A DNA stretch of 64,000 nucleotides from Rubrivivax sp. (GTDB lineage: Bacteria; Pseudomonadota; Gammaproteobacteria; Burkholderiales; Burkholderiaceae_C), in the NCBI GenBank assembly GCA_016789955.1, contig JAEUPB010000010.1, positions 1 through 64,000 on the forward strand. Reading direction: 5' to 3'. Below, one piece after another: positions 39,905 to 56,879 of this stretch; position 1 is the stretch's first letter; each line of letters starts with the position of its first letter. Below the pieces are notes generated by a model. It made no database searches, was not told the origin of the DNA, and saw only the letters and a list, made by a program, of their open reading frames with translations. The translations under genes were made by a program, and so were the position numbers.

Positions 39905-42187
39905 CTACCGCGGCAGGCCGAGCCCGCGCTGCGCGATCAGGCTGCGCTGGATTTCGTTGGTGCCGATGCTGATGACCCACATCAGCGCGTGGCGCAGCTG
40001 CTGCTCGATGCGGCCCTTCAGCACCGCGCCGGGGCTGCCTTCGCCGAGCAGGCCCTGCATGCCGAGGATCTCGAGCGCCGCTTCGCCGTAGCGCTCCATC
40101 AGCTCGCCGGAGTAGACCTTGCTGGCGGCGGCGTCGTGGGCCGGCGTCTGCCCGCCCTGCACGCCGGCGGCGCAATGCAGCATCAGCTGGCGGCCGGCCT
40201 CGATCTGCGCGGCCAGCGCGCCGATGCGCTCGCGCACCACCGGGTCCTGCGCCATCGGGCGGCCGTCGAGCAGGGCCTCGCGCAGGTGCGCGCACAGCAG
40301 CTCGAAGCTGCGCGCCACCTTCATCACGATGCCGCCGCCGATGAAGCCGCGCTCGGTGGCCAGCGCGCTGGTCAGCACGGTCCAGCCGCCGTGCAGCGGC
40401 CCGAGCAGCGCGTCGTCATCGACGAGCACGTCGTCGTAGAACACGTTGGCGAAGGTGCCGCCGTACATCGTCCGCGAGGTGCGGATGGTGATGCCGGGCG
40501 TCTTCATCGGCACCACGAACATGCTGATGCCGGCGTGCGGCGGCTTCGCGTCGGGGTCGGTGCGTGCTGCCAGCAGCATGTACTCGCCCCAGTAGGTGGT
40601 GGTCCAGATCTTCTGGCCGTTGATGAGCCAGCCGCTGCCGCGCGCATCGTGCACGCGCTCGGCCCGGGTGCGCAGCGAGGCCAGGTCGGAGCCGGCATCG
40701 GGCTCGCTGTAGCCCATGCCGTGGATGGCCTCGCCGCGCCGGATCTCCGGCAGCAGCCGCGCCTGCTGCTCCGGCGTGCCGTGCAGCAGGATCATCGCGG
40801 CCTGCACCAGCGCGCCGGTGCGCGGCGCGTCGGCGCGCTCCATCGCCTCGATGTACGCGAGCTGCTCGTGCGCGCCGCGGCCCTGCCCGCCGTGGCGCTC
40901 GGGCCACATCAGGCCGATCCAGCCGGTGCGGCCGAGCGCGCGTGCGAAGTCGCGGTCGTACTCGCGCTGCTGGTAGGTGAGCCGCTCGTGCGCGGCCTGC
41001 CGCGTGCCCGTCCAGTGCTCGGCCAGCCAGGCCTCGACCTCGGCGCGGAAGGCGTTGGCCGCGGGGCCGAGATCGCTGGGCGGCAGGCGGCCGCCGCCGT
41101 CGGTGTCAAGGTAGTGCGCCGCCAGCTCGGCGTGCGCGGTGCGGGCGCCGCCGTGGCGCAGCACGTCGGCATGCACGCGGCGGAAGTGGCGCGGGGCCTC
41201 GTGCTCCTCGCTGTAGCCGATGGCGCCCAGCGCGTGGTGCGTCTGCAGCGACGCGGTGCGCAGCGCATCGGCCGCCAGCGCTGCGGCGGCGGCCGAGAAG
41301 AGGCGCCAGCCCGGCGCGCCGCGGTCGTGCTGCAGCGCCGCGTGCCGCGCGGTGAGCTGCACGCCCGACAGCGCGATGTGGATGTCGGCGAGCTTGTGCT
41401 GCACCGCCTGGAAGCGGCCGATCGGCTGGCCGAACTGCCGCCGCTCGCAGGCCCAGGCGGTGGCCAGTTCGAAGGCCCGTGCCGCCGCGCCGCTTGCCCT
41501 GGCGACGTGGCCGAGGCGCGAGACGGCGCGCAACGTGGCCACGGTGTCGGCGGCCAGCGGTCCCAGCGTGGCCGGGGCACCAGCGAGCCGCACGCGGAAG
41601 AGGCCGGGCGCGCCCAGCGCGGGTGTCGCCTCGATCGTGGCCGTGCTCCCGGCGCAGGCCTGCAGGTCGATCCATGCAAGCTGCGCTGCCGACGCTTCGC
41701 CCGGCACGACGAGGGCGAGGTGCGTGGGGGCATCCGCCGCCTCCACGTACCGGATCTCGCCGTGCACGCGGCCATCCCGCAGCTGCACGGTCCCGGCGTC
41801 GCGGTCACCGTCGAACTGCGCGAAGTGGAAGGCGGGGCAGGCCTGCCCGGTGCGTACCGCGTCCAGCCACGCAGGTTCACCATGTTCGAGCGCCGACGCC
41901 AGGTTCACCAGCGCCGCCGGCAGCACCGCCGCGGGGCAGGCGGCGCGGCCCAACTCTTCCATCGCGACCAGCAGCTCCTGCACGCCCCCGGCGGCCGGAC
42001 CGCTGCACAGCGCGGCCAGGCCGAGGTCGGCGAGGGCCTGCCAGGCACCGCGCACAAGGGCCGGGTCCGCGGCGGCTTCCACGGCGCCGGCTGCCGGCCA
42101 GGCGTGTTCGAGCGTGCCGCGGATCGAGCCGCGCAGCAACTCGCGGTCTTCGTCGGTGGGCAGCTGCGCTGCGGGTTCGGCGGTCAC
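39905..42187 (-). CDS. Fused double acyl-CoA dehydrogenase
   Basis: The 760-residue chain has two acyl-CoA dehydrogenase units. The N-terminal half (about 1-365) is more divergent and keeps ERRQFGQPIGRFQAVQHKLAD. The C-terminal half (about 370-760) has YSEPDAGSDLASLRT, GWLINGQKIWTTTYWG and IGTNEIQRSLIAQRGLG and looks fully active. Two-unit dehydrogenases are known as heteromeric pairs in steroid side-chain degradation (ChsE type); here they are one chain. The GTG start follows AAAGGAG. TGGTTCTACCA lies immediately upstream of that site, after a CATAAT -10-like box, and is a probable operator. It is divergent from the GntR gene at 42259. Confidence 0.88.
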   Translation of the reverse strand: MTAEPAAQLPTDEDRELLRGSIRGTLEHAWPAAGAVEAAADPALVRGAWQALADLGLAALCSGPAAGGVQELLVAMEELGRAACPAAVLPAALVNLASALEHGEPAWLDAVRTGQACPAFHFAQFDGDRDAGTVQLRDGRVHGEIRYVEAADAPTHLALVVPGEASAAQLAWIDLQACAGSTATIEATPALGAPGLFRVRLAGAPATLGPLAADTVATLRAVSRLGHVARASGAAARAFELATAWACERRQFGQPIGRFQAVQHKLADIHIALSGVQLTARHAALQHDRGAPGWRLFSAAAAALAADALRTASLQTHHALGAIGYSEEHEAPRHFRRVHADVLRHGGARTAHAELAAHYLDTDGGGRLPPSDLGPAANAFRAEVEAWLAEHWTGTRQAAHERLTYQQREYDRDFARALGRTGWIGLMWPERHGGQGRGAHEQLAYIEAMERADAPRTGALVQAAMILLHGTPEQQARLLPEIRRGEAIHGMGYSEPDAGSDLASLRTRAERVHDARGSGWLINGQKIWTTTYWGEYMLLAARTDPDAKPPHAGISMFVVPMKTPGITIRTSRTMYGGTFANVFYDDVLVDDDALLGPLHGGWTVLTSALATERGFIGGGIVMKVARSFELLCAHLREALLDGRPMAQDPVVRERIGALAAQIEAGRQLMLHCAAGVQGGQTPAHDAAASKVYSGELMERYGEAALEILGMQGLLGEGSPGAVLKGRIEQQLRHALMWVISIGTNEIQRSLIAQRGLGLPR

Positions 42188-42199
42188 GGACGGCTCCTT

Positions 42200-42210
42200 T
42201 GGTAGAACCA
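42200..42210. promoter_or_regulatory. FCD-type GntR operator TGGTNNNACCA before the fused dehydrogenase
   Basis: TGGTAGAACCA (plus strand) is an imperfect palindrome with TGGT/ACCA arms, the core known for PdhR/FadR-like regulators. On the minus strand it overlaps the end of a CATAAT box and is followed by AAAGGAG and GTG. It lies 49 bases from the GntR start codon. The same motif is at 43879 and 51996. Confidence 0.72.
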
Positions 42211-42258
42211 TTATGCCTCGCGAGCCCGGCCGCGGCGACCGGCCCGTATCATCGATCG

Positions 42259-43104
42259 ATGCGAGCCGCTCCTGCTTCCCCGCCTGCGCAGGCCCCCGAT
42301 CCCGGCGCCGGCTTCAGCGCCATCCGCTCGGCTCGCGCCTTCGAGGAGATCGCCGCGCAGATCCGCGCGGAACTCGCCGCCGGGCGCCTCAAGGTGGGCA
42401 GCCGCCTGCCGTCGGAACGCGCGCTGTCGGAGCAGTTCGGGGTGTCGCGCAACACGCTGCGCGAGGCGCTGCGCTCGCTGGAGCACGCCGGGCTGATCCG
42501 GCTGCAGAAGGGTGCCAGCGGCGGCGCCTTCATCGCCGAGCGCAGCGGCGAGGCCGTCGTCACCGGGTTGATGGACCTCTACCACGTCGGCGCCATCGGC
42601 CCGGCGCAGCTGACGCAGGCGCGCATCTGGCTGGAGTCGGTGATCGTGCGCGAGGCCTGCCACCGCGCCACTGACGAAGACCTCGCCGCGCTGGCGCGCA
42701 ACGTCGAGCTCGCCGAGGCCGCGCAGGCGGCCGGTGATTTCGACCGCCGCGTCGAGCACCACCTCGACTTCCATCGCATCCTCGCGCGCATGACGGGCAA
42801 CCCGATCATGGTCGTCGTGATGGACGGGCTGCTGACGGTGCTGCTGCACTTCGTGCGTTCCATCGGCGACCAGCACAACCCGTACACCGTGCCGTCGCGC
42901 AAGCGCTTCCTCAAGCACATGGAGGAAGGTCATGCCGAGGCCGCCGTGGCCGAGATGGAAGGCATGCTGAAGCGGCTGGAGCGGGCCTACCTGTCGCGGG
43001 TGGAAGTGCCAGCGGCCGCCCCGGTGCGCGGGGCCAAGGCGCCCACGGCAAGAACACGAGCGCCGAAGGCGTCGGCGGCACGCACCCGCGCGCCCAAGGC
43101 CTGA
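42259..43104 (+). CDS. GntR-family (FCD-type) regulator of the CoA catabolic genes
   Basis: The 281-residue regulator has a winged helix-turn-helix (about 28-95, VGSRLPSERALSEQFGVSRNTLREALRSLEHAG) and an FCD effector domain with the metal pair intact in HLDFHRILARMTGNP. The last 30 residues are an Ala/Lys/Arg-rich tail with a repeated ARTRAPKA element, which may add non-specific DNA contact. TATCAT at 42247-42252 lies only 6 bases before the ATG, so the transcript could be leaderless. Three TGGTNNNACCA sites near catabolic genes are its likely targets. The effector may be an acyl-CoA or carboxylate. Confidence 0.9.
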   Translation: MRAAPASPPAQAPDPGAGFSAIRSARAFEEIAAQIRAELAAGRLKVGSRLPSERALSEQFGVSRNTLREALRSLEHAGLIRLQKGASGGAFIAERSGEAVVTGLMDLYHVGAIGPAQLTQARIWLESVIVREACHRATDEDLAALARNVELAEAAQAAGDFDRRVEHHLDFHRILARMTGNPIMVVVMDGLLTVLLHFVRSIGDQHNPYTVPSRKRFLKHMEEGHAEAAVAEMEGMLKRLERAYLSRVEVPAAAPVRGAKAPTARTRAPKASAARTRAPKA

Positions 43105-43114
43105 CGCCAGCGCG

Positions 43115-43792
43115 TCAGTCCACCCAGCGCACCGCGTCGGCCGGCTCGGCCCGCGTCGTGCGGAAGCCGTTGGCCGGATGCGCCGTGTCGGCGTAGCCCA
43201 GCGACACGCCGCACACCACCAGCCGGTCGGCCGGCAGCCCGAAGAAGTCGCGCACGCGCTGCGGCCGCGCGGCCAGTGCCGCCTGCGCGATGGTGGCCAC
43301 GCCGTGCGCCGTGGCCGCCAGCATGAACGCCGCCACCCAGGCGCCGCAGTCCACCGCGCCGTACACGCCCAGCGCCCGCGGCGTGGTGACCAAAGCCACG
43401 TGCGGCGCGCCGAACAGCCGTAGGTTCTCGCGGCCTTGCCGGGCCGCGGCCTCGCGGTCGCCGCGCGCCACGCCCACCGCCTGGTACAGCGCCAGCCCGC
43501 ATTCGCGCCGGCGCGTCTGGTACACGCCTTCGTAGGCCGCGGGCCAGGCGAAGTCGGGGCCGGGTTCGTCGTCTGCCGGCGGGGCCAGCATCGCCTCGCG
43601 GAAGCGCTCGGTGGCCGCGCCGCGCGTGAGGCACACCTGCCACGGCTGCGCGTTGCACCACGAGGCGCTGCGCTGCGCGGTGGCGACGATGCGGTCCAGC
43701 ACCGGCTGCGGCACGGGGTCGGGGCGGAAGCCGCGGCAGCTGTAGCGGTCACGCAGCAGGGAGTCGAGCGCGTCGGCGCGGGAGGTGTCCAT
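43115..43792 (-). CDS. Nitroreductase-family protein
   Basis: The 225-residue FMN oxidoreductase has RYSCRGFRPDPVP at the start, SWCNAQPWQV, and GAVDCGAWVAAFMLAATAHGVATI near the middle. It ends with VCGVSLGYAD. Members reduce nitro groups, flavins or enones. It converges on the GntR gene, with 10 bases between the stops, and is divergent from the CoA-transferase operon. It could supply redox activity to the pathway, but no operon link is seen. Confidence 0.88.
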   Translation of the reverse strand: MDTSRADALDSLLRDRYSCRGFRPDPVPQPVLDRIVATAQRSASWCNAQPWQVCLTRGAATERFREAMLAPPADDEPGPDFAWPAAYEGVYQTRRRECGLALYQAVGVARGDREAAARQGRENLRLFGAPHVALVTTPRALGVYGAVDCGAWVAAFMLAATAHGVATIAQAALAARPQRVRDFFGLPADRLVVCGVSLGYADTAHPANGFRTTRAEPADAVRWVD

Positions 43793-43842
43793 GCCCTGCA
43801 GTGTGGCCCATGCGCGGGGCGGTGCGGGGCGGGCCGCTCCGG

Positions 43843-43889
43843 TTGACAGCCCCGGCGCCGGTCTCTAGCATGGGGCAATGGTTCAACCA
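43843..43889 (+). promoter_or_regulatory. Sigma70 promoter with TGGTNNNACCA operator at the start site
   Basis: TTGACA (43843-43848) and TAGCAT (43866-43871) are separated by exactly 17 bases, a near-consensus housekeeping promoter. The expected start is near 43878. The perfect palindrome TGGTT-C-AACCA (43879-43889) lies directly on it, so a bound GntR repressor would block initiation. The first gene of the operon starts at 43904. Confidence 0.75.
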
Positions 43890-43903
43890 AAAGACATCCA
43901 CCG

Positions 43904-44731
43904 ATGAGCGGCGCGGCGGTGCAGGCCGGCTCCGGGGTCGCGCCGGTCGAGGCTCCCGCGCTCGGCGAGACGCTCGCCGTGCTGCTGGCGCGCGACCTCG
44001 CCGACGGCGAGAAGGCCATCATCGGCACCAACTCCGACATCCAGCTCGCCGCCTGCAACCTGGCGCGCCTGATGCAGGCGCCGCGGCTGTGGTGGGTGTC
44101 GGGCCCGGGCGGCATGGTCAACCCCACGCGCGACCACCTGCTGTCCACCGCCGACTTCGAGAACATCGAGTCGGCCGAGGCCTGGATGGACCTGCCCGAC
44201 ATGATCGACTTCATCGACTGGCAGATCCACTTCTTCGACTTCGCCATCCTCTCGGCGCTGCAGGTCGATCGCCACGGCAACATCAACACCGTGTTGGTGG
44301 GCGAGCCGGCGAAGCCGCGCGTGCGCGGGCCCGGCACCGTGGGCATCAGCGCACTGTGCGGCCTGGCCAGGCGCTTCTACGTGGTGCTGACGCGGCACGA
44401 CCGCAGCGCGTTCCGCCCGCGCGTGGACTTCATCTGCGGCGCCGGCCACCTCGAGGGCGGGGACTCGCGCCTGCAGGCCGGGCTGCCGCCGGGCGGGCCG
44501 AAGCTCGTGCTGTCGCCGCTGGGCGTGTTCGACTTCGAACCGCGGAGCAAGGCGATGCGCGTGCGATCGCTGAGCCCCGGCGTCACGCTCGAGCAGGTGC
44601 GCGACGCGACCGCCTTCGACCTGCTGGTGGAAGGCACGCCGCCGGTCTCCGCGCAGCCCACCCCCCACGAACTCGCGCTGCTGCGTGGGCATGTCGATGT
44701 GCGCCGCACGCTGGCGCGCAAGTTCCCGTGA
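43904..44731 (+). CDS. CoA-transferase family subunit, IpdB/GctB-like
   Basis: The 275-residue family I CoA-transferase-like subunit resembles the B subunit of glutaconate CoA-transferase and IpdB. Where true transferases carry the catalytic Glu in an E-S/N-G turn, this chain reads VSGPGGMVNPTRDHLL with no Glu. That resembles IpdB, part of a hydrolase that opens a ring of steroid-derived CoA esters. LVEGTPPVSAQPTPHEL closes the domain. It is the first gene under the TTGACA/TAGCAT promoter and has its partner 22 bases downstream. Confidence 0.82.
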   Translation: MSGAAVQAGSGVAPVEAPALGETLAVLLARDLADGEKAIIGTNSDIQLAACNLARLMQAPRLWWVSGPGGMVNPTRDHLLSTADFENIESAEAWMDLPDMIDFIDWQIHFFDFAILSALQVDRHGNINTVLVGEPAKPRVRGPGTVGISALCGLARRFYVVLTRHDRSAFRPRVDFICGAGHLEGGDSRLQAGLPPGGPKLVLSPLGVFDFEPRSKAMRVRSLSPGVTLEQVRDATAFDLLVEGTPPVSAQPTPHELALLRGHVDVRRTLARKFP

Positions 44732-44753
44732 ACGCACCGAGGCACGCCTGCAC

Positions 44754-45641
44754 ATGATTCCGAGCAAGCTGGTGACCCTCGACGCCGCCGTGGCCGACAT
44801 CGCCGACGGCGCCACCGTCGGCCTGGGCGGCTGGATCTTCAACTCGCAGCCGATGGCGCTGGTGCGGGCGCTGGTCCGCCGCGGTGCGCGCGACCTCGAC
44901 CTGGTGCCGTCGCCGAGCTCGATCGCGCCCGACCTGCTGATCGGCGCCGGCTGCGCGCGCAGCACGGTGTGCGTGTTCATCAGCTTCGAGCAGTTCGGGC
45001 TGGCGCCGCACTTCCGCCGCCGCGCCGAGGCTGGCACGCTCGTCGTGCACGACCTCGACGGTCCGGCGCTGGCCGGCGGCATGCGTGCGGCGATCTGCGA
45101 CCTGCCGTGGATGCCGATCCCCGACCTCGGCACCGACCTGCCCAAGCACGCGCCGCAGTTCTACCGGCCGCTGCCGCAGCAGCCGGGCGAACGCCGCATG
45201 CTGGCCGCACGCGCGATCAGTCCCGACGTGTGCCTGCTGCACGCGCAGCAGGCCGACGAGCACGGCAACGTGCAGTTCCTCGGCCCGCCGTTCTTCGACG
45301 CGATGCTGGCGCAGGCATCGAAGCGGGTGATCGTCTCGGTGGACCGCATCGTCTCGCGCGAGACGATCCGCCGCAACAACCACCTGACGAAGCTGCCCGC
45401 GGCGATGGTCGACGCCGTGGTCGAGGCGCCGTGGGGCGCGCACCCGACCGCCTCGCCCACGGTCTACCGCGCCGACGAGCAGCACCTGTCGGAGTACGTG
45501 AAGGCGGCGGCGAAGGAGGAGGCCTGGGCGTCGTACCTGCAGCGCCACGTGCACGGCGCCGCCACGCAGGCCGAATACCTCGATGCGCTCGGCGGCTCGC
45601 GGCTGGCGGCGCTGGCGGTCTCCGAATCGACGCTGGTCTGA
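44754..45641 (+). CDS. CoA-transferase family subunit, IpdA/GctA-like
   Basis: The 295-residue A-type subunit has the opening SKLVTLDAAVADIADGATVGLGGW, with the Gly-rich CoA-binding loop, and HAQQADEHGNVQFLGPPFFD near the middle, the QxxDxxGN motif of the family. It pairs with the preceding subunit. The pair may be a transferase or an IpdAB-type ring-opening hydrolase; the missing Glu in the partner favours the second. Confidence 0.82.
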   Translation: MIPSKLVTLDAAVADIADGATVGLGGWIFNSQPMALVRALVRRGARDLDLVPSPSSIAPDLLIGAGCARSTVCVFISFEQFGLAPHFRRRAEAGTLVVHDLDGPALAGGMRAAICDLPWMPIPDLGTDLPKHAPQFYRPLPQQPGERRMLAARAISPDVCLLHAQQADEHGNVQFLGPPFFDAMLAQASKRVIVSVDRIVSRETIRRNNHLTKLPAAMVDAVVEAPWGAHPTASPTVYRADEQHLSEYVKAAAKEEAWASYLQRHVHGAATQAEYLDALGGSRLAALAVSESTLV

Positions 45642-45646
45642 CGCGC

Positions 45647-46858
45647 GTGGCAGCGACGAACGACAACGGCCGCGGGCAAGCCCGGCCCGGCATCCTCGAC
45701 GGCGTGCGCGTGCTCGACTTCACCGCGATGATGTCCGGCCCCTACGCCACGCGGCTGATGGCCGACCTGGGCGCCGAGGTCGTCAAGATCGAGCCGCCCG
45801 AAGGCGACCACATCCGCACGCGGCCGCCGCGTCGAGACGGGCGCAGCACCTACTTCGCGCAGCTCAACGCGGGCAAGAAGAGCCTGGTGCTCGACCTGAA
45901 GCACCCCGCGGCGATCGACGTGGTGCGCCGCCTCGTACCCACTGCCGACGTGCTGGTGGAGAACTATCGCCCCGGCGTGATGCAGCGCCTGGGCCTCGAC
46001 TACGCGGCGCTGGCCGAGCTGAACCCGCGGCTGGTCTACGCGTCGATCTCCGGCTTCGGGCAGACCGGCTCGTGGTCCGGGCGCAGCGCCTACGCGCCGG
46101 TGCTGCACGCGGCCAGCGGCTACGACATCGCGAACCTCGCGTACCAGGACGGGCTCGAGCGGCCGCTGAAGAACGGCATCTTCGTGGCCGACGTGCTCGG
46201 CGGCTCGCTGGCCTTCGGCGCGGTGCAGGCCGCGCTGTTCCGCGCCGCGCGCACCGGGCAAGGCGAACAGGTCGACCTGTCGCTGATGGACGCGATGCTC
46301 GGGCTGCTGGTGTACGAAAGCCAGGAAGCGCAGTTCCCTGCCGAGCGGCGCCGCCCGCTGTACCAGCCCACGCGCGCCAGCGACGGCTATGTGCTGATCG
46401 CGCCGGTCAGCCAGAACAACTTCGAAGCCCTGGCGCGCGCCACCGGCCACCCGGAGTGGACCGCCGACCCGCGCTTCGCCACCATCCACGCTCGCGAGCA
46501 CCACTGGGGTGAGCTGATGGCACTGCTCGACGACTGGGCCGGCAGCCGCACTGCGGACGAGTGCGAGGCTGCCATGCACGCCGGAGGGGTTCCGTGCTCG
46601 CGCTATTGTTCGGTGCGCGAGGCGATGCAGTCGCCGCCGGTGGTCGAGCGCGGCGTGCTGCAGACGATCCGCGACGGCTCCGGGCCGTTCCAGGTCACCA
46701 ACCCCGCCTTTCGTTTCCGCCACACGCAGGCCCAGGCCCGCGACCACGTGCCCGAACTGGGTGAACATGGCACCGCGCTGCTGCGCGAGCTCGGCCTGGA
46801 CGACGCCCGCGTGGCCGAGCTGCAGGCCGCCGGCGCGCTGGGCCGGGCAACGACATGA
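45647..46858 (+). CDS. CaiB/BaiF-family (class III) CoA-transferase
   Basis: The 403-residue enzyme transfers CoA between acids by way of an aspartyl-CoA intermediate. It has VLDFTAMMSGPYATRLMADLGAEVVKIE, VENYRPGVMQRLGLDY, ISGFGQTG and the probable catalytic Asp182 in FVADVLGGSLAFG. The GTG start follows the previous stop by 5 bases. In this operon it is the best candidate for activation of the imported acid to its CoA ester. Confidence 0.93.
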   Translation: MAATNDNGRGQARPGILDGVRVLDFTAMMSGPYATRLMADLGAEVVKIEPPEGDHIRTRPPRRDGRSTYFAQLNAGKKSLVLDLKHPAAIDVVRRLVPTADVLVENYRPGVMQRLGLDYAALAELNPRLVYASISGFGQTGSWSGRSAYAPVLHAASGYDIANLAYQDGLERPLKNGIFVADVLGGSLAFGAVQAALFRAARTGQGEQVDLSLMDAMLGLLVYESQEAQFPAERRRPLYQPTRASDGYVLIAPVSQNNFEALARATGHPEWTADPRFATIHAREHHWGELMALLDDWAGSRTADECEAAMHAGGVPCSRYCSVREAMQSPPVVERGVLQTIRDGSGPFQVTNPAFRFRHTQAQARDHVPELGEHGTALLRELGLDDARVAELQAAGALGRATT

Positions 46859-46871
46859 CGAGGAGACACCG

Positions 46872-47861
46872 ATGAACCCGACCCGCCACCGCCGCCGCCT
46901 GATCGTCCGGGCCCTGCCCTTGCTCGCCGCGACCGCGGCTGCGCTGCCCGGCGCCCTCTGGGCCCAGGCCTGGCCCAGCCGCCCGGTCACGATCATCGTG
47001 CCGTACCCGGCCGGCGGCACCACCGACACGCTGGCCCGCGTGATGCAGGAGCCGCTGCAGAAGCTGCTCGGGCAGACGGTGGTCATCGACAACAAGCCCG
47101 GCGCCTCGGGCATGCTGGGCACGCGGCTGGCTGCGCGCGCGCCGGCCGACGGCTACACGCTGGTGATGCCGAACAACGCACTGGCGATCTCGCCGCATGC
47201 GTCGAAGGAGGCCGGCTTCACGGCGCGCGACTTCGCGCCGATCACGATGGTGTCGCTGCAGCCGATGGTGCTGGTGACGCACCCGTCGCTGCCGGCCACC
47301 AACGTGCAGCAGCTGCTCGAGTACGCCCGCGCCAACCCGGGCAGGATCGACTACGCCACCTCGGGCGCGGCGAGTTTCGGGCACCTGGCCACCGAGCTGT
47401 TCCAGCGCCAGGCCGGCATCACGATGACGCACATCCCGTACAAGGGGCAGGGGCCGATCACGCAGGCGATGCTCACCGGCGAGGTGAAGCTGCTGATCTC
47501 CACCACCTCGGCGCAGATGAACCAGTTCGTCAAGGAAGGCAAGCTGCGCATGCTGGGCGTGGCCTCGCCGCAGCCCTCGCCGCTGGCGCCGGGTGCCGAG
47601 CCGATCGCCAACACGCTGAAGGGCTACCAGGCCGAGGTGTGGTTCGGTCTGCTGGCGCCGGCCGGCACACCGCGCGACGTGGTGATGAAGATCAACGAGG
47701 CGATGGGCAAGGTGCTGCAGATGCCCGACGTGAAGGCGAAGTTCGAGCTGTCCGGCGCGGCCACCGCGCCCACCACGCCCGAGCAGTTCGCCTCGCGCAT
47801 CGCCGAGGAAGACGCGGCCTGGGGGCGGGTGGTCCGCGAGGCGAACATCAAGGCGGACTGA
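46872..47861 (+). CDS. Bug/TctC-family periplasmic solute-binding protein
   Basis: The 329-residue receptor has a signal peptide (MNPTRHRRRLIVRALPLLAA, cleavage near LWAQ) and the family opening WPSRPVTIIVPYPAGGTTDTL. Two further Bug motifs follow, VIDNKPGASGMLGT and HIPYKGQGP. GGAG precedes the ATG by 8 bases. It closes the operon with the CoA-transferase genes, which suggests its ligand is the acid that CaiB-type CoA transfer activates. No membrane transporter genes are adjacent. Confidence 0.93.
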   Translation: MNPTRHRRRLIVRALPLLAATAAALPGALWAQAWPSRPVTIIVPYPAGGTTDTLARVMQEPLQKLLGQTVVIDNKPGASGMLGTRLAARAPADGYTLVMPNNALAISPHASKEAGFTARDFAPITMVSLQPMVLVTHPSLPATNVQQLLEYARANPGRIDYATSGAASFGHLATELFQRQAGITMTHIPYKGQGPITQAMLTGEVKLLISTTSAQMNQFVKEGKLRMLGVASPQPSPLAPGAEPIANTLKGYQAEVWFGLLAPAGTPRDVVMKINEAMGKVLQMPDVKAKFELSGAATAPTTPEQFASRIAEEDAAWGRVVREANIKAD

Positions 47862-47944
47862 CGCGCGGCGGTCCCGTCCGATCCGGGTTCGTGGGGTCTT
47901 GGCGCGGCCCACGCTCGCCGGTGCCTGTCGCAGAATGCCGGGCG

Positions 47945-49222
47945 ATGACCCGCTCCCCTCCACCGTCCGCGCATCTTCCGGGGACTGCAGGCCATGCCCG
48001 GGCCTTGTACGGGCGCGCGCTCGCCTGGCACCGCGAGGGCCGAGGCGACGCCGCGGCCCAGACGCTGCTCGAGCTGCTGGCGCGCTGGCCGCGCGAGGTC
48101 GACGCGATGTCGCTGCTGGCGGCGGTGGAGGCGCAGCGCGGCCGCCCAGCCGAGGCGGAGCGATTGCTGCGCAACGCGCTGGCCTTGCAGCCGCAGCGCG
48201 CGACGCTGCACCACAACCTGGGCAACGCGCTGGCCGCGCAGGGTCGCATGGAAGAGGCGCTGGCCTGCTTCGAGCGATCGCTCGCGCTGAGGCCCGACTA
48301 CCCGCCGACGCGGGTCAACATCGCTCGCGCATTGCAGGCGCTGGGCCGTGTCGACGACGCCCTGGCGGCCATCGACGCGGCCCTCGCAGCGAGTCCTGCG
48401 TCCGCGGACGCGCTGATGATCCGGGCCGGGCTGCTGGCCGAGCAGGCCCGCCGCCCCGGCGCCGATGCGATGGCGCACGCCCATGCCGTGCAGGCCTACC
48501 GGCGGGCCGAGGCGGAGGGGGTGGATGCGGACATGGTGCGCTACGCCCTGGCCGCGCTCGGAACTGGAGAGGCCCCGCCCACGTCGCCGGCGCAGTACGT
48601 GCGCCAGCTCTTCGACCGGTACGCACCGCGTTTCGACGAGCACTTGCGCGATCGCTTGAACTACCGCGTGCCCGAATTGCTCGTGGCCGCCGCGCTGGCG
48701 CAGGTGGGGCCCGAGGCGGTGGGTGCGGACGCCGCGCGCCCCGGCCTTGCCGTGGTGGACCTGGGATGCGGCACCGGCCTCTGCGGACCGCTGCTGCGCC
48801 CGACAGCCAGTCGCATGGTGGGCGTGGACCTGAGCGCCCGGATGCTCGAGGGGGCCGCGGCCCGGGGTTACGACGAACTGGTCTGTGCAGATGCCGTCAC
48901 CTACCTCGACGGGCAACCCGCGGCATCGTTCGATCTGGTGCTGGCCGCAGACGTCGTCGTCTACATCGGGGACATCGGGCCGCTGGCCGTCGCGGTGCGC
49001 CGCGCCTTGCGGCCGGGTGGCATGTTCGCGCTCTCGACCGAGCCGCACGACGGCAATGGCTACCAGCTGCAGCCGTCGCGCCGCTATGCCCACGCCGACG
49101 CCTATGTCGACGCCGTCGCGCGTGCACAAGGCCTCGAGCCTGTGGCCCGGCACCGTGAGGTTCTGCGCGAGGAGCATGGCACACCGGTGGAGGGCGTGCT
49201 GCACGTGCTGCGACGGGCCTGA
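47945..49222 (+). CDS. TPR-repeat SAM-dependent methyltransferase
   Basis: The 425-residue protein starts with about four TPR repeats (about 20-190, LHHNLGNALAAQGRMEEALACFERSL being one) and ends with a class I methyltransferase domain. SAM motif I is VVDLGCGTGLCGPLL; MVGVDLSARMLEGA and FDLVLAADVVVYIGD follow. It resembles proteins often annotated as contractile-protein or N-methyltransferases without known targets. The gap of 83 bases from the Bug gene suggests a separate unit. It seems unrelated to the catabolic genes. Confidence 0.85.
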   Translation: MTRSPPPSAHLPGTAGHARALYGRALAWHREGRGDAAAQTLLELLARWPREVDAMSLLAAVEAQRGRPAEAERLLRNALALQPQRATLHHNLGNALAAQGRMEEALACFERSLALRPDYPPTRVNIARALQALGRVDDALAAIDAALAASPASADALMIRAGLLAEQARRPGADAMAHAHAVQAYRRAEAEGVDADMVRYALAALGTGEAPPTSPAQYVRQLFDRYAPRFDEHLRDRLNYRVPELLVAAALAQVGPEAVGADAARPGLAVVDLGCGTGLCGPLLRPTASRMVGVDLSARMLEGAAARGYDELVCADAVTYLDGQPAASFDLVLAADVVVYIGDIGPLAVAVRRALRPGGMFALSTEPHDGNGYQLQPSRRYAHADAYVDAVARAQGLEPVARHREVLREEHGTPVEGVLHVLRRA

Positions 49223-49282
49223 CGGCACACGGGCGTCCGACGGCCTCTGGCATCATCGGCGCCGCCCTGTCCCCCGGCCCGC

Positions 49283-50347
49283 ATGGCGCGCTCACCGTCC
49301 CCTCCGTTGCCCACCGAACCCGCCGCCGCACCGGCCCGGCCCGGCCGCGTGCAGATGGTCGACATCGCCCGCCTGGCCGGTGTGTCGGTGTCCACCGTGT
49401 CGCGCGCGATGGCGGGCAGCACGCTGATCAACCCCGAGACGCGGCAACGCATCACCGAGCTGGCGCGCAGTCACAACTACAGCGTCAACGCCGGTGCGCA
49501 GAACCTGCGGCTGAAGCAGAACCGCACCGTGTCGGTGGTCGTGCCTTACGACCCGCAGACCCGCCAGCACCTCTCGGACCCGTTCTTCCTGAGCCTGATC
49601 GGCGGCATCGCCGACGCCCTCACCGAGCAGGGCCACGAGATGCTGCTGTCGCGCGTCGATGCCAACCAGCTCGACCAGGCGGCGTCGGCCTACCACACCG
49701 GCCGCGCGATGGGCGTGGTGCTGATCGGCCAGTGGCACCAGCACGACCAGCTCAACGCGATGGCGTCGCAAGGCGTGCCGTTCGTCGTGTGGGGCGCGCA
49801 GCTGCCCGACCAGCTCTACGCCTCGGTGGGGAGCGACAACGTCGAAGGCGGCCGGCTCGCCACCGAGCACCTGCTGCAGCAGGGCGCGCGCCGGATCGCC
49901 TTCCTCGGTGACCCCGACCTGCCCGAGTTCGGCCAGCGGCACCAGGGTTACCTGCAGGCCCACGAGGCTGCCGGGCTGATGGCCGACCCGAGCCTCACGC
50001 TGCCGGTGCCGATGCTGCCCGACGCCCCGGCGCGGGCCATGGAAGACCTGCACCGGCACGGCCCCCCTATCGACGCGATGTTCGCGGCCAGCGACCTGAT
50101 GGCGATGACGGCCGTCGGCGCTCTGCGGCGGCTGGGGCGGCACGTGCCCGAAGACCTGCTGGTGGTCAGCTACGACGACATCGCGCTGGCGGCGCACGCC
50201 CATCCGCCGCTGACCACCGTGCCGCAGCCGGTGGAGGCCGCCGGCCAGATGCTCGTGGCCAGCCTGAAGGCGCTTCTGGCCGGCGAACCGCCGGTGCGGC
50301 GCACGCTGCCCACCGAACTGATCGTGCGCGACAGCAGCCGGCGTTGA
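49283..50347 (+). CDS. LacI-family transcriptional regulator
   Basis: The 354-residue regulator has a LacI helix-turn-helix (MVDIARLAGVSVSTVSRAMAG) after a 22-residue Pro/Ala-rich extension, a hinge region, and a periplasmic-binding-like effector domain (VGSDNVEGGRLATEHLLQQGARRIAFLGD). The end ELIVRDSS is typical. LacI proteins mostly sense sugars, but the neighbours are CoA-ester enzymes. It may add a second signal to this region, or its targets may lie elsewhere. It converges on the DUF35 gene. Confidence 0.92.
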   Translation: MARSPSPPLPTEPAAAPARPGRVQMVDIARLAGVSVSTVSRAMAGSTLINPETRQRITELARSHNYSVNAGAQNLRLKQNRTVSVVVPYDPQTRQHLSDPFFLSLIGGIADALTEQGHEMLLSRVDANQLDQAASAYHTGRAMGVVLIGQWHQHDQLNAMASQGVPFVVWGAQLPDQLYASVGSDNVEGGRLATEHLLQQGARRIAFLGDPDLPEFGQRHQGYLQAHEAAGLMADPSLTLPVPMLPDAPARAMEDLHRHGPPIDAMFAASDLMAMTAVGALRRLGRHVPEDLLVVSYDDIALAAHAHPPLTTVPQPVEAAGQMLVASLKALLAGEPPVRRTLPTELIVRDSSRR

Positions 50348-50371
50348 AGCGCCGCGCCGCCGCGGGCGCCC

Positions 50372-50773
50372 TCAAGCCGGCTTGAACATCGGCACCATCG
50401 CGCCGCCGTCGGCCGCCTTGAAGCAGACCTGAACGCGCTGGCCGATGCGCAGCGCGTCGAGGTCGCCGCAGTCGACGATGTTGCTCATCATCGTCACGCC
50501 TTCGTCGAGCGTGACGAAGGCCAGCGCATACGGAATCGGGCCGGCGCGGCGCGTGACGGTCAGGCTGTAGATCGTGCCGGTGCCCCGCGCGGCCACCCAC
50601 TCGGTGTCGCCCTGGCAGTACGGGCACACCGGGCGCGGGTACCAGTGCGTACGGCTGCAGGCCGTGCAGCGGCGCAGCTTCAGCACGCCGTCGCGCGCGG
50701 CGGCCAGGTAGGGTTCGTTGGAGGCGTCGGTGGCCACGGGGGCGAGCGGGCGGTCCTGGTAGGGGGTGGGCAT
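50372..50773 (-). CDS. Zn-ribbon/OB-fold protein (DUF35)
   Basis: The 133-residue protein has an N-terminal helix, a rubredoxin-like zinc ribbon with LRRCTACSRTHWYPRPVCPYC (CX2C...CX2C) and an OB fold (TIYSLTVTRRAGPIPYALAFVTL). DUF35 proteins bind thiolase-like enzymes and help load acyl-CoA; in ChsH2 such a domain is essential for the Ltp2 aldolase. It starts 2 bases after the thiolase-like gene, so the two are co-translated and probably form a complex. Confidence 0.93.
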   Translation of the reverse strand: MPTPYQDRPLAPVATDASNEPYLAAARDGVLKLRRCTACSRTHWYPRPVCPYCQGDTEWVAARGTGTIYSLTVTRRAGPIPYALAFVTLDEGVTMMSNIVDCGDLDALRIGQRVQVCFKAADGGAMVPMFKPA

Positions 50774-50775
50774 CG

Positions 50776-51942
50776 TCAGGCCCTTTCGAGGATGAGGGTG
50801 GCCGAGCCGTGGCGGGTGCCGAGCAGGCCGCCCATGCCGTGCGCCAGCGCCAGGGTGCAGTCCGGCACCTGCACCGCCGGGTGCGCTTCGCCGCGCAGCT
50901 GCCGCACCGCCTCGATGACCTTGGTGATGCCACCGCGGTTGGCCGGGTGGTTGTTGCACAGCCCGCCGCCGTCGGTGTTGAACGGGAGCGCGCCGCGGCC
51001 GGAAATGAGGTTGCCGTCGGCCACGAAGCGGCCGCCCTGGCCCTTGGCGCAGAAGCCCAGGTCCTCGAGCGCGATGAGCACGCTGATCGTGAAGCTGTCG
51101 TAGATCGACGCGTACTGGATGTCCTTCGGCGTCACGCCCGCCGATTCGAACGCCGCCGGTCCGCTGACCGCTGCGGCCGACCACGTGAGGTCGACCTCGC
51201 CGTTCAGCGTGCCCTTGATCGCCTCGCCGGCGCCGAGCACGTTCACCACCGGACGCTTCAGCGAGCGTGCGATGTCCGGGTGCACCACCACCAGCGCGCC
51301 GCCGCCATCGCTGACCACGCAGCAGTCGAGCTTGCGCAGCGGGTCGGAGATCATCGGCGAGGCGAGCACGTCGGCCACCGTCACGGCGTCGCGCAGCATC
51401 GCGTGCGGGTTGTGCTGCGCGTGCGCCGCGGCGGCCACCTTGATCCACGCGAGCTGCTCGGCGGTGGTGCCGTACTCGTGCATGTGGCGCGCGGCGGCCA
51501 GCGCGTAGACGTTCACCGTCACCGGGCCGTAGGGCATCTCCCAGGGCACGTCGGGCGTGGCGGCGTTCACGAGCCGCGGCGCCAGGCCCGTGGATCCTTC
51601 GCTGCGCGGCCGTCCGGCCAGCGTGATCAGCACGACGCGCGCCCGCCCGGCGGCGATGGCCTCGGCGGCATGCGCCACGTGCACCAGGTAGGCCGAGCCG
51701 CCCGTGTCGGTGCTGTCGACGTGGCGCACCTTCAGGCCCAGGTAGTCGACCATGTTGTTGGCGCCCAGCCCGGGCCCGTCGCCGGCGCAGCAGTAGCCGT
51801 CGACGTCGGCCAGCGTCAGCCCGGCGTCGGCCAGCGCGCCGCGCGCGCACTCGGCGTGCAGCTGCGCCACCGTCTTGTCGGGGGCCTTGCGCGTGGGGTG
51901 TTCGTAGGCGCCTGCGATGCAGGCCTTGCGTCGGATGCTCAT
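50776..51942 (-). CDS. Thiolase-like (SCP-x/Ltp type) protein lacking the nucleophilic Cys
   Basis: The 388-residue protein has a thiolase fold of the lipid-transfer/SCP-x class: ALADAGLTLADVDGY, IYDSFTISVLIALEDLG, and NTDGGGLCNNHPANRGGI near the C-terminus. Around residues 79-84, where thiolases have Cys in a CASG-like turn, it reads DTGGSAY, so it cannot form the normal acyl-enzyme. The CxG cysteine near the end is also absent (LAHGMGG). Ltp-type aldolases show such loss, and they also work with a DUF35 partner. The ATG at 51942 is preferred over an upstream in-frame start. It is divergent from the SDR gene across the 51996 operator. Confidence 0.87.
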   Translation of the reverse strand: MSIRRKACIAGAYEHPTRKAPDKTVAQLHAECARGALADAGLTLADVDGYCCAGDGPGLGANNMVDYLGLKVRHVDSTDTGGSAYLVHVAHAAEAIAAGRARVVLITLAGRPRSEGSTGLAPRLVNAATPDVPWEMPYGPVTVNVYALAAARHMHEYGTTAEQLAWIKVAAAAHAQHNPHAMLRDAVTVADVLASPMISDPLRKLDCCVVSDGGGALVVVHPDIARSLKRPVVNVLGAGEAIKGTLNGEVDLTWSAAAVSGPAAFESAGVTPKDIQYASIYDSFTISVLIALEDLGFCAKGQGGRFVADGNLISGRGALPFNTDGGGLCNNHPANRGGITKVIEAVRQLRGEAHPAVQVPDCTLALAHGMGGLLGTRHGSATLILERA

Positions 51943-51989
51943 CGTGCGGCGTGGGGGTGGGGCCGATGCGGGCCGGTCTCGGGCCACTG

Positions 51990-52006
51990 TATCATTGGTT
52001 GAACCA
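51990..52006. promoter_or_regulatory. TGGTNNNACCA operator in the divergent thiolase/SDR promoter region
   Basis: TATCAT (51990-51995) is followed directly by the perfect palindrome TGGTT-G-AACCA (51996-52006). The SDR start codon lies 20 bases downstream and the thiolase-like start 53 bases in the other direction, so one bound dimer could control both operons. The palindrome differs from that at 43879 only in its central base. Confidence 0.72.
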
Positions 52007-52026: not shown

Positions 52027-52800
52027 ATGCCGCCCCTCGTCTCGCTCGCAGGCCGCACGATCGTCGTCACGGGGGCCGGCCAGGGCATCGGGCAGGCTAT
52101 CACGGGGCTCGCGCTCGAGCTCGGCGCGAACGTGGTCGCGCTGGACCTGAACGCCGCCACGCTGGAGGCGGCGCTCGCGCCGCTGCCGCAGGAGCGCGTG
52201 CTGGGCGTGGTCGGCAGCGTGGTCGACGCGGAACTCGCCGCCCGCAGCGTGGAGCAGGCGGTGGCGCGCTTCGGCGCCGTGCACGGGCTCGTCAACAATG
52301 CCGGCATCACGCGGCCGGCGATGATCGACAAGATGACCGCGCAGCAGTGGCAGGAGGTGATCGACGTGCACCTCACCGGCGCGTTCTACTGGACGCAGGC
52401 CGTCGGCCGCCACATGCTGGCCCGCGTGAAGGGGGGCGATGCCAGCGGCGGCTCGATCATCAACATCTCGTCGGACGCCGGCCGCAAGGGCTCGATCGGG
52501 CAGATCAACTACGCCGCGGCCAAGGCCGGCATGCTGGGCATGACGATGACGGCCGCGCGCGAGTGGGGCAGGTTCAACATCCGCAGCAATGCGATCTGCT
52601 TCGGCCTGGTGGAGACGCCGATGACCGAGGTGGTCCGCAGCGAGAAGTTCCGCGACACGATGCTGGCGCAGATCCCGATGGGCCGCTGGGCGCAGCCCGA
52701 CGAGGTGGTGAAGACCGTGTGCTTCCTGCTCTCCGATGCCGCGAGCTACATCACCGGCCAGAACCTGGCGGTGAACGGCGGCTTCCACATCACGCTGTGA
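52027..52800 (+). CDS. Short-chain dehydrogenase/reductase
   Basis: The 257-residue SDR has the cofactor motif VTGAGQGIGQA, Asp in VVALDLN suggesting NAD rather than NADP, LVNNAGI, and the catalytic YAAAK with Tyr162 and Lys166 after INISSDAG. It ends with YITGQNLAVNGGF. In this operon it is the likely 3-hydroxyacyl-CoA dehydrogenase of the pathway. GGAGCTTCC before the ATG is a fair ribosome-binding site. Confidence 0.93.
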   Translation: MPPLVSLAGRTIVVTGAGQGIGQAITGLALELGANVVALDLNAATLEAALAPLPQERVLGVVGSVVDAELAARSVEQAVARFGAVHGLVNNAGITRPAMIDKMTAQQWQEVIDVHLTGAFYWTQAVGRHMLARVKGGDASGGSIINISSDAGRKGSIGQINYAAAKAGMLGMTMTAAREWGRFNIRSNAICFGLVETPMTEVVRSEKFRDTMLAQIPMGRWAQPDEVVKTVCFLLSDAASYITGQNLAVNGGFHITL

Positions 52801-53639
52801 GCGTCGGCATGCACGACGAGACGCTGGCCGTCGAGCAGGGTGCCGACGGCGTCGCGCGGGTCACGCTGAACCGGCCGGGTGCGAAGAACGCGCTGTCGGG
52901 CCGCATGGCCGACGAATTGACAGCCGCGATGCGCGCGCTGGGGGCCGACGAGGCGGTGCGCGCGATCGTGCTCACGGGGGCCGGCGGCGACTTCTGTGCC
53001 GGCGGCGACGTGAAGGACATGGGCGCGGGCGGCCCGCGCACGCCCGAGCAGCGGCGCGCCGCGATGGGCCGCTATCGCGAGCTGGCACTCGTGCTGCTCG
53101 GTCTGGAGAAGCCGCTGGTGGCCGCGCTCGACGGCGTGGCCTACGGCGCGGGGCTCAGCATCGCGCTGACGGCCGACCTCGTGCTCGTCAGCACCCGCGT
53201 GCGCTGCGCGATGGTGTTCCACCGCATCGGCCTCGTGCCCGACGTCGCGGCCTGGTACACGCTGCCGCGCATCGTCGGGCTGCAGCGCGCCAAGGAGCTG
53301 ATCTACTCGGCGCGCGAGTTCGGCGCCGAAGAGGCGCTGCGCATGGGCCTGGCGCTGGAGGTGCTGGCGCCCGAGGCGTTGCAGCCGCGGGCGCTGGAGC
53401 TGGCTCGTGGCCTGGCCGCCGGCCCCGCCACGGCCTTCAGCCTGTCGAAGCGCGCGCTCAATGCGTCGCTGAACAGCGAACTGGGCGCGATGCTCGACCT
53501 CGAGGCCACCGCCCAGGCCGTGGCCGCCAGCAGCGACTTCGCCCGCGAGGCCGTGCGCCGCTTCGTCGCCCGCGAGCCGGCGGCCTTCCGCTGGCCGGCG
53601 CCCCCCGCATCGAACACCGACCCGAAGACACCGACATGA
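52797..53639 (+). CDS. Enoyl-CoA hydratase/isomerase-family protein
   Basis: The 280-residue crotonase has oxyanion segments DFCAGGDVKDMG and DGVAYGAGLSIALTADLVL. FHRIGLVPDVAAWYTLPRIVGLQRAKELIYSAREF follows, with Pro-Asp at the position of the second Glu, as in dienoyl-CoA isomerase-like members. The GTG start overlaps the SDR stop in GTGA; ATG 52809 is an alternative. The end overlaps the MaoC gene (ATGA), so all three are translationally coupled. Confidence 0.9.
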   Translation: MSVGMHDETLAVEQGADGVARVTLNRPGAKNALSGRMADELTAAMRALGADEAVRAIVLTGAGGDFCAGGDVKDMGAGGPRTPEQRRAAMGRYRELALVLLGLEKPLVAALDGVAYGAGLSIALTADLVLVSTRVRCAMVFHRIGLVPDVAAWYTLPRIVGLQRAKELIYSAREFGAEEALRMGLALEVLAPEALQPRALELARGLAAGPATAFSLSKRALNASLNSELGAMLDLEATAQAVAASSDFAREAVRRFVAREPAAFRWPAPPASNTDPKTPT

Positions 53640-54508
53640 TCGACGACGCGCTGACACGCGCCTGGACCAGCGGCGAGGTGCGCCACGCCTACACGGCGCG
53701 CGACACCATCCTCTACGCGCTGGGCCTCGGCTACGGGCAGGACCCGCTCGACCCGCTGCAGCTGAGGCACACCTACGAGCAGGGCCTGGCGACCTTGCCC
53801 AGCATGGCCGCGGTGCTGGCGTCGCCGGGCTTCTGGGTGCGCGAACGGCGCGAGCTGGGCATCGACTTCGCGAAGCTCGTGCACGGGGAGCAAGGCCTCG
53901 TGGTGCACCGGCCGCTGCAGCCCGAAGGCACGCTGGTCGGCCGCAGCCGCGTGCTGCGCATCGTCGACAAGGGCGAGGGCAAGGGTGCCGTGCTGCACGT
54001 GGAGAAGCAGCTCGTCGATGCCGCGAGCGGCGACCCCGTGGCCACCTGCGAGCAGGTGCTGTTCCTGCGCGGCGACGGCGGGTTCTCGGCGCGCGGCCGC
54101 AGCGACGAACCCCCGCCCGCGCCCGCGCCGACGCCGGACACGCCGCCCGACGTCGTGCTCGACTGGGCGACGCGGCCCGAGGCCGCGTTGGTCTACCGCC
54201 TTTCCGGCGACCTGAATCCGCTGCACGTCGACCCGGCGGTGGCCACGCGGGCCGGCTTCCCGCGGCCGATCCTCCATGGCCTCGCCACCTGGGGCATCGC
54301 CTGCCACCGCTTGGTGCAGGCCTGCTGCGGCGGCGATGCGACGCGGCTGCGCAGCTTCCGCGCACGGCTCAGCGCACCGGTGTATCCGGGCGAAACGCTG
54401 CGCGTGGAGGTGTGGCGCACCGGCGAGCACGAGGCGGCGTTCCGCTGCCGCGTGCCGGCGCGCGACATGGTCGTGCTGTCGCACGGCCGGGCCGGCTGGG
54501 TCGACTGA
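53636..54508 (+). CDS. Double-hotdog MaoC-like enoyl-CoA hydratase
   Basis: The 290-residue protein has two hotdog folds. The N-terminal one (about 1-140) lacks catalytic residues and probably binds the acyl chain. The C-terminal one (about 165-290) has the hydratase-2 motif YRLSGDLNPLHVDPAVATRAGF with Asp and His, and ILHGLATWG. It hydrates 2-enoyl-CoA to the (R)-3-hydroxy form, or dehydrates in reverse. Its presence beside a crotonase suggests bulky or branched substrates, as in peroxisomal and steroid pathways. It is the last gene of the operon and converges on katG. Confidence 0.92.
   Translation: MIDDALTRAWTSGEVRHAYTARDTILYALGLGYGQDPLDPLQLRHTYEQGLATLPSMAAVLASPGFWVRERRELGIDFAKLVHGEQGLVVHRPLQPEGTLVGRSRVLRIVDKGEGKGAVLHVEKQLVDAASGDPVATCEQVLFLRGDGGFSARGRSDEPPPAPAPTPDTPPDVVLDWATRPEAALVYRLSGDLNPLHVDPAVATRAGFPRPILHGLATWGIACHRLVQACCGGDATRLRSFRARLSAPVYPGETLRVEVWRTGEHEAAFRCRVPARDMVVLSHGRAGWVD

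Positions 54509-54530: not shown

Positions 54531-56879
<2,349 letters not shown>

Follow-up and report, generated by a model that had tools for sequence, protein, structure and literature searches.

The DNA considered here is a 64,000-nucleotide stretch of Rubrivivax sp. (positions 1 to 64,000 of contig JAEUPB010000010.1, assembly GCA_016789955.1), referred to below as the window. It carries several acyl-CoA catabolic operons and, among them, the gene of a GntR protein of the FCD type (42259-43104), which is very probably the local repressor of these operons through three operators of the form TGGTNNNACCA. A dimer of the regulator would bind (a/t)TGGTtnaACCA(a/t) at each of the three. Each operator would sit at the -10/start region of a promoter, so that transcription would be shut off for the fused acyl-CoA dehydrogenase gene and for the CoA-transferase-like/CaiB/Bug, thiolase-like/DUF35 and SDR/crotonase/MaoC operons. 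The regulator probably represses its own gene as well. Release of the repressor would come from a carboxylic acid that the pathway degrades, or from the CoA ester of that acid. Binding of the sites by this particular protein, repression, autoregulation and everything said of the effector are what we infer.

The sites themselves and their position in promoters are observed. The preliminary description of this DNA had picked out three palindromes, at 42200, 43879 and 51996, in promoter positions before catabolic genes, with one beside the GntR gene. Exact copies of TGGTNNNACCA are present at these three places, and a count of at least three was reached in 0 of 100 dinucleotide-preserving shuffles of the window (mean 0.21, maximum 2). 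All three are intergenic and in promoter positions. The nearest gene starts to operator 1 are those of the fused acyl-CoA dehydrogenase (13 positions away) and the GntR gene (49). For operator 2 they are those of the CoA-transferase-like gene (15) and a divergent nitroreductase gene (87), and for operator 3 those of the SDR gene (21) and the divergent thiolase-like gene (54), in agreement with the placing first described. A scan with one mismatch allowed found 9 sites in the window against a shuffle mean of 9.30. With no excess over chance only the exact sites are informative there, and one-mismatch scanning of the window was dropped as evidence.

The sites are conserved at the same promoters of relatives. 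A scan of genome contigs gave 80 loci, the 55 best of which (L060-L114) were used for a footprint test. The region from 250 bp upstream to 30 bp downstream of each gene was searched for 3,328 four-base dyads (256 half-sites, gaps 0-12). TGGT-N3-ACCA ranks first of the 3,328 before the CoA-transferase-like genes (13/16), the SDR genes (8/9), the thiolase-like genes (6/6), the fused acyl-CoA dehydrogenase genes (7/9) and the regulator genes (8/31). It occurs in 3 of 20 members of the CaiB set, which is mostly operon-internal, and is not ranked first there. The best other dyad with a gap of 3 reaches 3/16 in the CoA-transferase set, and GCGC reaches 6/9 in the SDR set. In the aligned promoters that carry the site, the flanks are 19-40% identical to those of the window. 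The site stands directly before a GntR-CaiB gene pair in loci L087-L090 and L095, which accords with autoregulation.

Site and regulator also occur together. Within a family set of 299 genomes, a search at E<=1e-30 finds the regulator in 12, the own genome included. Four of the genomes (G053, G122, G177 and G255) hold close orthologues, 65-71% identical. The thiolase-like gene is present in 36 of the 299, and 30 of these loci were fetched for a co-occurrence test. An exact site lies within 300 bp upstream of this gene in 5/5 genomes with a close orthologue (the own genome, G000, and the four named) and in 0/25 of the other genomes examined, although the thiolases of the latter are 69-82% identical. 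Two of these 25 encode no more than distant relatives of the regulator (40% in G055 and 35% in G105). The exact probability of such a split is 1 in 142,506 if the genomes are independent, with G177 and G255 belonging to one genus. The CoA-transferase-like gene is found in only 2 of the 299 genomes at E<=1e-60, so that the same test is not applicable to it.

Among these relatives, G053 has the regulator gene next to the CoA-transferase-like/CaiB/Bug operon and the fused dehydrogenase gene; an exact site precedes the operon, and a site with one mismatch separates regulator from dehydrogenase. The regulator genes of G177 and G255 adjoin the DUF35/thiolase and SDR/crotonase/MaoC genes, and two exact sites lie between the divergent operons. 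The core TGGTTNAACCA falls among catabolic genes at 20 of its 25 places in the four orthologue genomes: 6/7 in G053 (on three separate contigs, C43, C64 and C66), 5/6 in G177, 6/8 in G255 and 3/4 in G122. Five genomes without a regulator match (G082, G094, G110, G195 and G269) have it at 19 places, which are scattered. A looser pattern, ATGGTNNNACCA, was rejected because it clusters less clearly (8/10 in G053, 8/14 in G255, 6/14 in G122 and 5/16 in G177). The recurrence at four promoters, the diverged flanks, the split between genomes and the clustering of the core argue for the joint control by the neighbouring GntR protein that had been proposed at the outset.

The protein is of a kind suited to such operators. 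It has an N-terminal GntR winged helix (PF00392, 70.9 bits against a cut-off of 27) and a C-terminal FCD domain (PF07729, 71.2 bits against 24.3), the domain make-up of the FadR subfamily. Among the solved chains closest to it are NanR, another GntR-family protein (2di3), PdhR and FadR. It reaches no curated cut-off among the 25 listed of 29 NCBIfam matches, and among these its scores are far under the cut-offs of NanR, LldR, PdhR, GlcC and FadR. Helix-turn-helix numbering was moved over via the start of an alignment with FadR chain 1hw1, together with contact numbers that we take to be those of FadR. On this numbering positions 28, 59 and 39 are R54, G85 and N65, all invariant in nine aligned sequences. 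PMC4494728 describes the operators of the FadR subfamily as palindromes whose TKGT and ACMA boxes leave 3 nt between GT and AC. In that paper G/C in the TKGT box is associated with Arg at position 28 and Gly at position 59, and A/T beside the centre with Asn at position 39. The TGGT-N3-ACCA palindrome fits this definition, and the three residues accord with TGGT-T-N-A-ACCA. The preliminary description had stated that FCD-type regulators such as PdhR bind TGGT-N3-ACCA cores, which matches the published operator type of the subfamily.

The place of the operator within the promoter points to the mode of action. A promoter scan at operator 2 found one match, of sigma-70 type, against a mean of 0.1 in shuffles. 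Across the aligned promoters, those of the window included, a TTGAC box precedes the operator by 26-42 nt in 13/14 CoA-transferase-like, 6/11 SDR and 5/8 dehydrogenase promoters, compared with 0.7-1.4% at random nearby positions. By eye, TATCAT abuts or overlaps the operator in 9/11 SDR rows, and TATAAT overlaps it in 7/8 further loci from Hydrogenophaga, Acidovorax, Polaromonas and related metagenome-assembled genomes (MAGs). Most of these further loci precede genes reading like CaiB and thiolase. That the operator occupies the -10/start region, in many cases downstream of a TTGAC box, suggests repression, and the geometry appears to be that of a repressor.

Several observations weigh against this reading. 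The genome encodes a paralogue (C51:48322-49086; L042, L057) that is 56% identical to the regulator and shares its contact residues R, N and G, so that they cannot tell the two proteins apart. A second, more distant GntR gene adjoins the regulator orthologue in G053 (L050), G255 (L051), G177 (L052) and G122 (L053). The sites may be real operators that belong to another FCD-GntR protein, such as the paralogue, or to several. This is unlikely, as the genome scan finds no exact TGGTNNNACCA on contig C51 and the site pattern across the family tracks the close orthologue.

Operators 1 and 3 of the window have no TTGAC at -35 spacing and no promoter-like match at the threshold of the tool. Some FCD proteins are activators, CitO being an example. 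There is a small chance that the regulator owns the sites and acts on them as an activator, or in both ways, rather than as a plain repressor. Against it stands the position of the operator, which in most aligned promoters lies directly against the -10 element or overlaps it, as is usual for repressors.

The motif is also not over-represented in the own genome (5.26 Mb in 116 contigs, 79.6% complete). Exact TGGTNNNACCA occurs at 26 places, compared with 56 for a reversed control pattern and about 30 expected from base composition. The bare motif is a weak signal there, and for this reason the regulon was tested by comparison with relatives. By a codon-usage gene caller, 17 of the 26 copies lie inside genes and 9 are intergenic, the three of the window among them. 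A genome scan had been suggested at the outset, with many copies away from promoters to count against the regulon. Taken literally such copies exist, yet they do not refute it, because base composition alone accounts for about that many. Counting copies in the own genome is uninformative, and the signal is the local cluster together with the promoter position. That the three palindromes are chance matches of a short motif in a GC-rich genome, as the low genome count and the lack of a one-mismatch excess in the window might suggest, is highly improbable given the shuffle test, the promoter position of all three, and the conservation and co-occurrence in relatives.

The loci compared are not independent, being partly sister strains. 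Bradyrhizobium supplies 6 of the 13 CoA-transferase positives, and the 7 fused-dehydrogenase positives come from two genera only (5 Bradyrhizobium and 2 Pseudorhodoferax). At the fused-dehydrogenase promoter an exact site is absent in P. sakaiensis, which has a one-mismatch site, and in a Rubrivivax MAG. Only 8 of 31 loci have a site before the regulator gene, so that autoregulation is no general feature. The proposal of a local GntR repressor nevertheless stays the most probable account of the sites.

Other intergenic sites of the own genome were kept out of the regulon. At C27:5512 (L011) an intergenic TGGTTCTACCA lies between a NUDIX-looking gene (-) and a class II aldolase-looking gene (+), both read by eye, and it is a possible further target. 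A search of nine other genomes at E<=1e-20 brought up no homologue of the NUDIX-looking protein, and the site was left out of the regulon. Also left out were C41:16984 (L015), where TGGTTGAACCA stands directly before a soxY-like gene (by eye) and may be a coincidence, and C24:110795, which has another core.

The genes of the locus and the three operators are collected in the table below. The gene names given earlier hold for the GntR+FCD protein, the acyl-CoA dehydrogenase, the CoA_trans pair, CaiB, Bug, SDR, crotonase, MaoC, thiolase-like and DUF35 genes. The operons then listed as members of the regulon are retained. The nitroreductase gene had been omitted from that list, yet it is divergent from operator 2; it adjoins the regulator in 5 of 55 other loci and is a possible extra member. 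Between the operons, at 47.9-50.3 kb, no exact site was found in the window scan for the LacI-type gene or for a methyltransferase-like open reading frame (by eye). A peroxidase-family gene, catalase-peroxidase-like (54531-56750; PF00141 in two stretches), adjoins the MaoC gene on the other strand and is without an exact site.

Table. Operators, promoter and genes of the proposed regulon and its surroundings in the window
Feature	Position	Strand	Remarks
Fused (tandem) acyl-CoA dehydrogenase	39905..42187	-	Pfam
Operator 1	42200..42210	no strand	TGGTAGAACCA; between fused acyl-CoA dehydrogenase (-) and GntR (+)
GntR+FCD regulator, 281 aa, proposed repressor	42259..43104	+	PF00392, PF07729; nine-sequence alignment
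Nitroreductase-family gene, divergent from operator 2	43115..43792	-	PF00881
Sigma-70-like promoter	43843..43871	+	TTGACA-N17-TAGCAT; 7 bases before operator 2
Operator 2	43879..43889	no strand	TGGTTCAACCA; precedes CoA-transferase-like operon
CoA-transferase-like subunit, GctB/IpdB type	43904..44731	+	PF01144; chains 1poi_B, 6con_B
CoA-transferase-like subunit, IpdA/GctA type	44754..45641	+	PF01144; chains 6co6_A, 6con_A
CaiB-type (family III) CoA-transferase	45647..46858	+	PF02515
Bug/TctC periplasmic receptor	46872..47861	+	PF03401
LacI-type gene	49283-50347		family search
DUF35/ChsH2-like OB-fold protein	50372..50773	-	PF01796, PF12172
Thiolase-like protein, PRK08142 subfamily	50779..51942	-	family search
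Operator 3	51996..52006	no strand	TGGTTGAACCA; between thiolase-like (-) and SDR (+) genes
SDR dehydrogenase	52027..52800	+	family search
Crotonase-family protein	52809..53639	+	family search
Double MaoC-type hydratase	53636..54508	+	family search

The CoA-transferase-like pair departs from the enzymes that it resembles. Over most of their length both subunits align with chains of the type I CoA-transferase fold, to which the GctAB, IpdAB and AibAB enzymes belong. In one pairwise alignment the position that is Glu in 6co6 and Ala in 6coj corresponds to Gly103 of the alpha-type subunit, a residue invariant in 16 sequences (window included). The Glu of the IpdAB alpha subunit that is Ala in 6coj_A, which we take to be Glu105, is therefore not present. 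According to PMC5380842, CoA transfer by GCT requires the catalytic Glu54 of its beta subunit, a position that is Gly in IpdAB. The beta-type subunit has Gly67 at this position, invariant in 17 sequences (window included) and aligned with the Gly of 6con_B. It lacks the catalytic Glu of type I CoA-transferases (GctAB) and in this respect resembles IpdB. Since Gly103 occupies the Glu position of IpdA, the pair is not a standard IpdAB either. On these low-identity alignments the pair appears to fall outside both the type I CoA-transferases and the standard IpdAB enzymes, and it perhaps represents another hydrolase or lyase with the type I CoA-transferase fold. The pair may be more novel than the regulon.

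Large catabolic islands with many exact sites are seen in relatives (L202-L210, L052 and L053), with KSTD-like, Rieske, P450 and FabK/NMO-like proteins. The genes behind island sites include those for acyl-CoA dehydrogenase, thiolase/DUF35-like, CaiB-like, Rieske oxygenase, FAD dehydrogenase, FabK/NMO-like and Bug-like proteins, some of them named by eye. The islands further contain a ketosteroid-dehydrogenase-like FAD enzyme, a Rieske oxygenase of the LigXa type and a pimeloyl-CoA-dehydrogenase-like protein, and these NCBIfam matches, like those of the FabK/NMO-like protein and the P450, are under the curated cut-offs. Such gene content hints at alicyclic acids as substrate and decides nothing.

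More distant relatives of the regulator, from Variovorax, Xenophilus and others (L096-L103, L105 and L111), lie near sites with another centre, such as TGGTTTGACCA or TGGTATTACCA. There is a hint here that the centre of the operator changes with the clade of the regulator.

The regulon is new, of a known kind and well supported by the comparisons above, and an FCD repressor acting on a TGGT-N3-ACCA palindrome would be an ordinary mechanism. Like the FadR-subfamily regulators PdhR, LldR, GlcC and DgoR, the protein combines GntR and FCD domains with a TKGT/ACMA palindrome of 3-nt spacing (PMC4494728). What sets it apart is its targets, acyl-CoA catabolic operons for which no pathway has been named. 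The set also differs from the KstR2 regulon of steroid-degrading actinobacteria, as KstR2 is of the TetR family and the regulator here is GntR/FCD, and as thiolase-like/DUF35, CaiB and Bug genes are included. It is like that regulon in placing an IpdAB-like pair, an acyl-CoA dehydrogenase, an SDR and a crotonase under a local repressor, here a predicted one (PMC5380842). The islands of relatives add the FabK/NMO-like protein, of the family to which the same source relates IpdC. A literature search that extended neither to the supplements of PMC4494728 nor to RegPrecise found no paper on this regulon, and an earlier motif prediction for an orthologue is possible.

It is a tentative suggestion, more doubtful than probable, that the regulon corresponds to that of KstR2, with GntR control and with an undescribed acid of alicyclic or terpenoid-like type as its substrate. 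It would then extend across beta- and alphaproteobacteria, and MAGs labelled as Deltaproteobacteria and Binataceae have related regulators. The pair, without the transferase Glu and the IpdA Glu, would be a further ring- or chain-cleaving enzyme of the fold. For bacteria such as Variovorax, Hydrogenophaga, Pseudorhodoferax, Bradyrhizobium and Piscinibacter (Ideonella) sakaiensis, the proposal provides a specific set of regulator, operator and targets for acyl-CoA catabolic operons that are otherwise only generically named. Operons that lie apart are tied by a common operator into one pathway, so that the inducer of the regulator would indicate what the substrate is.

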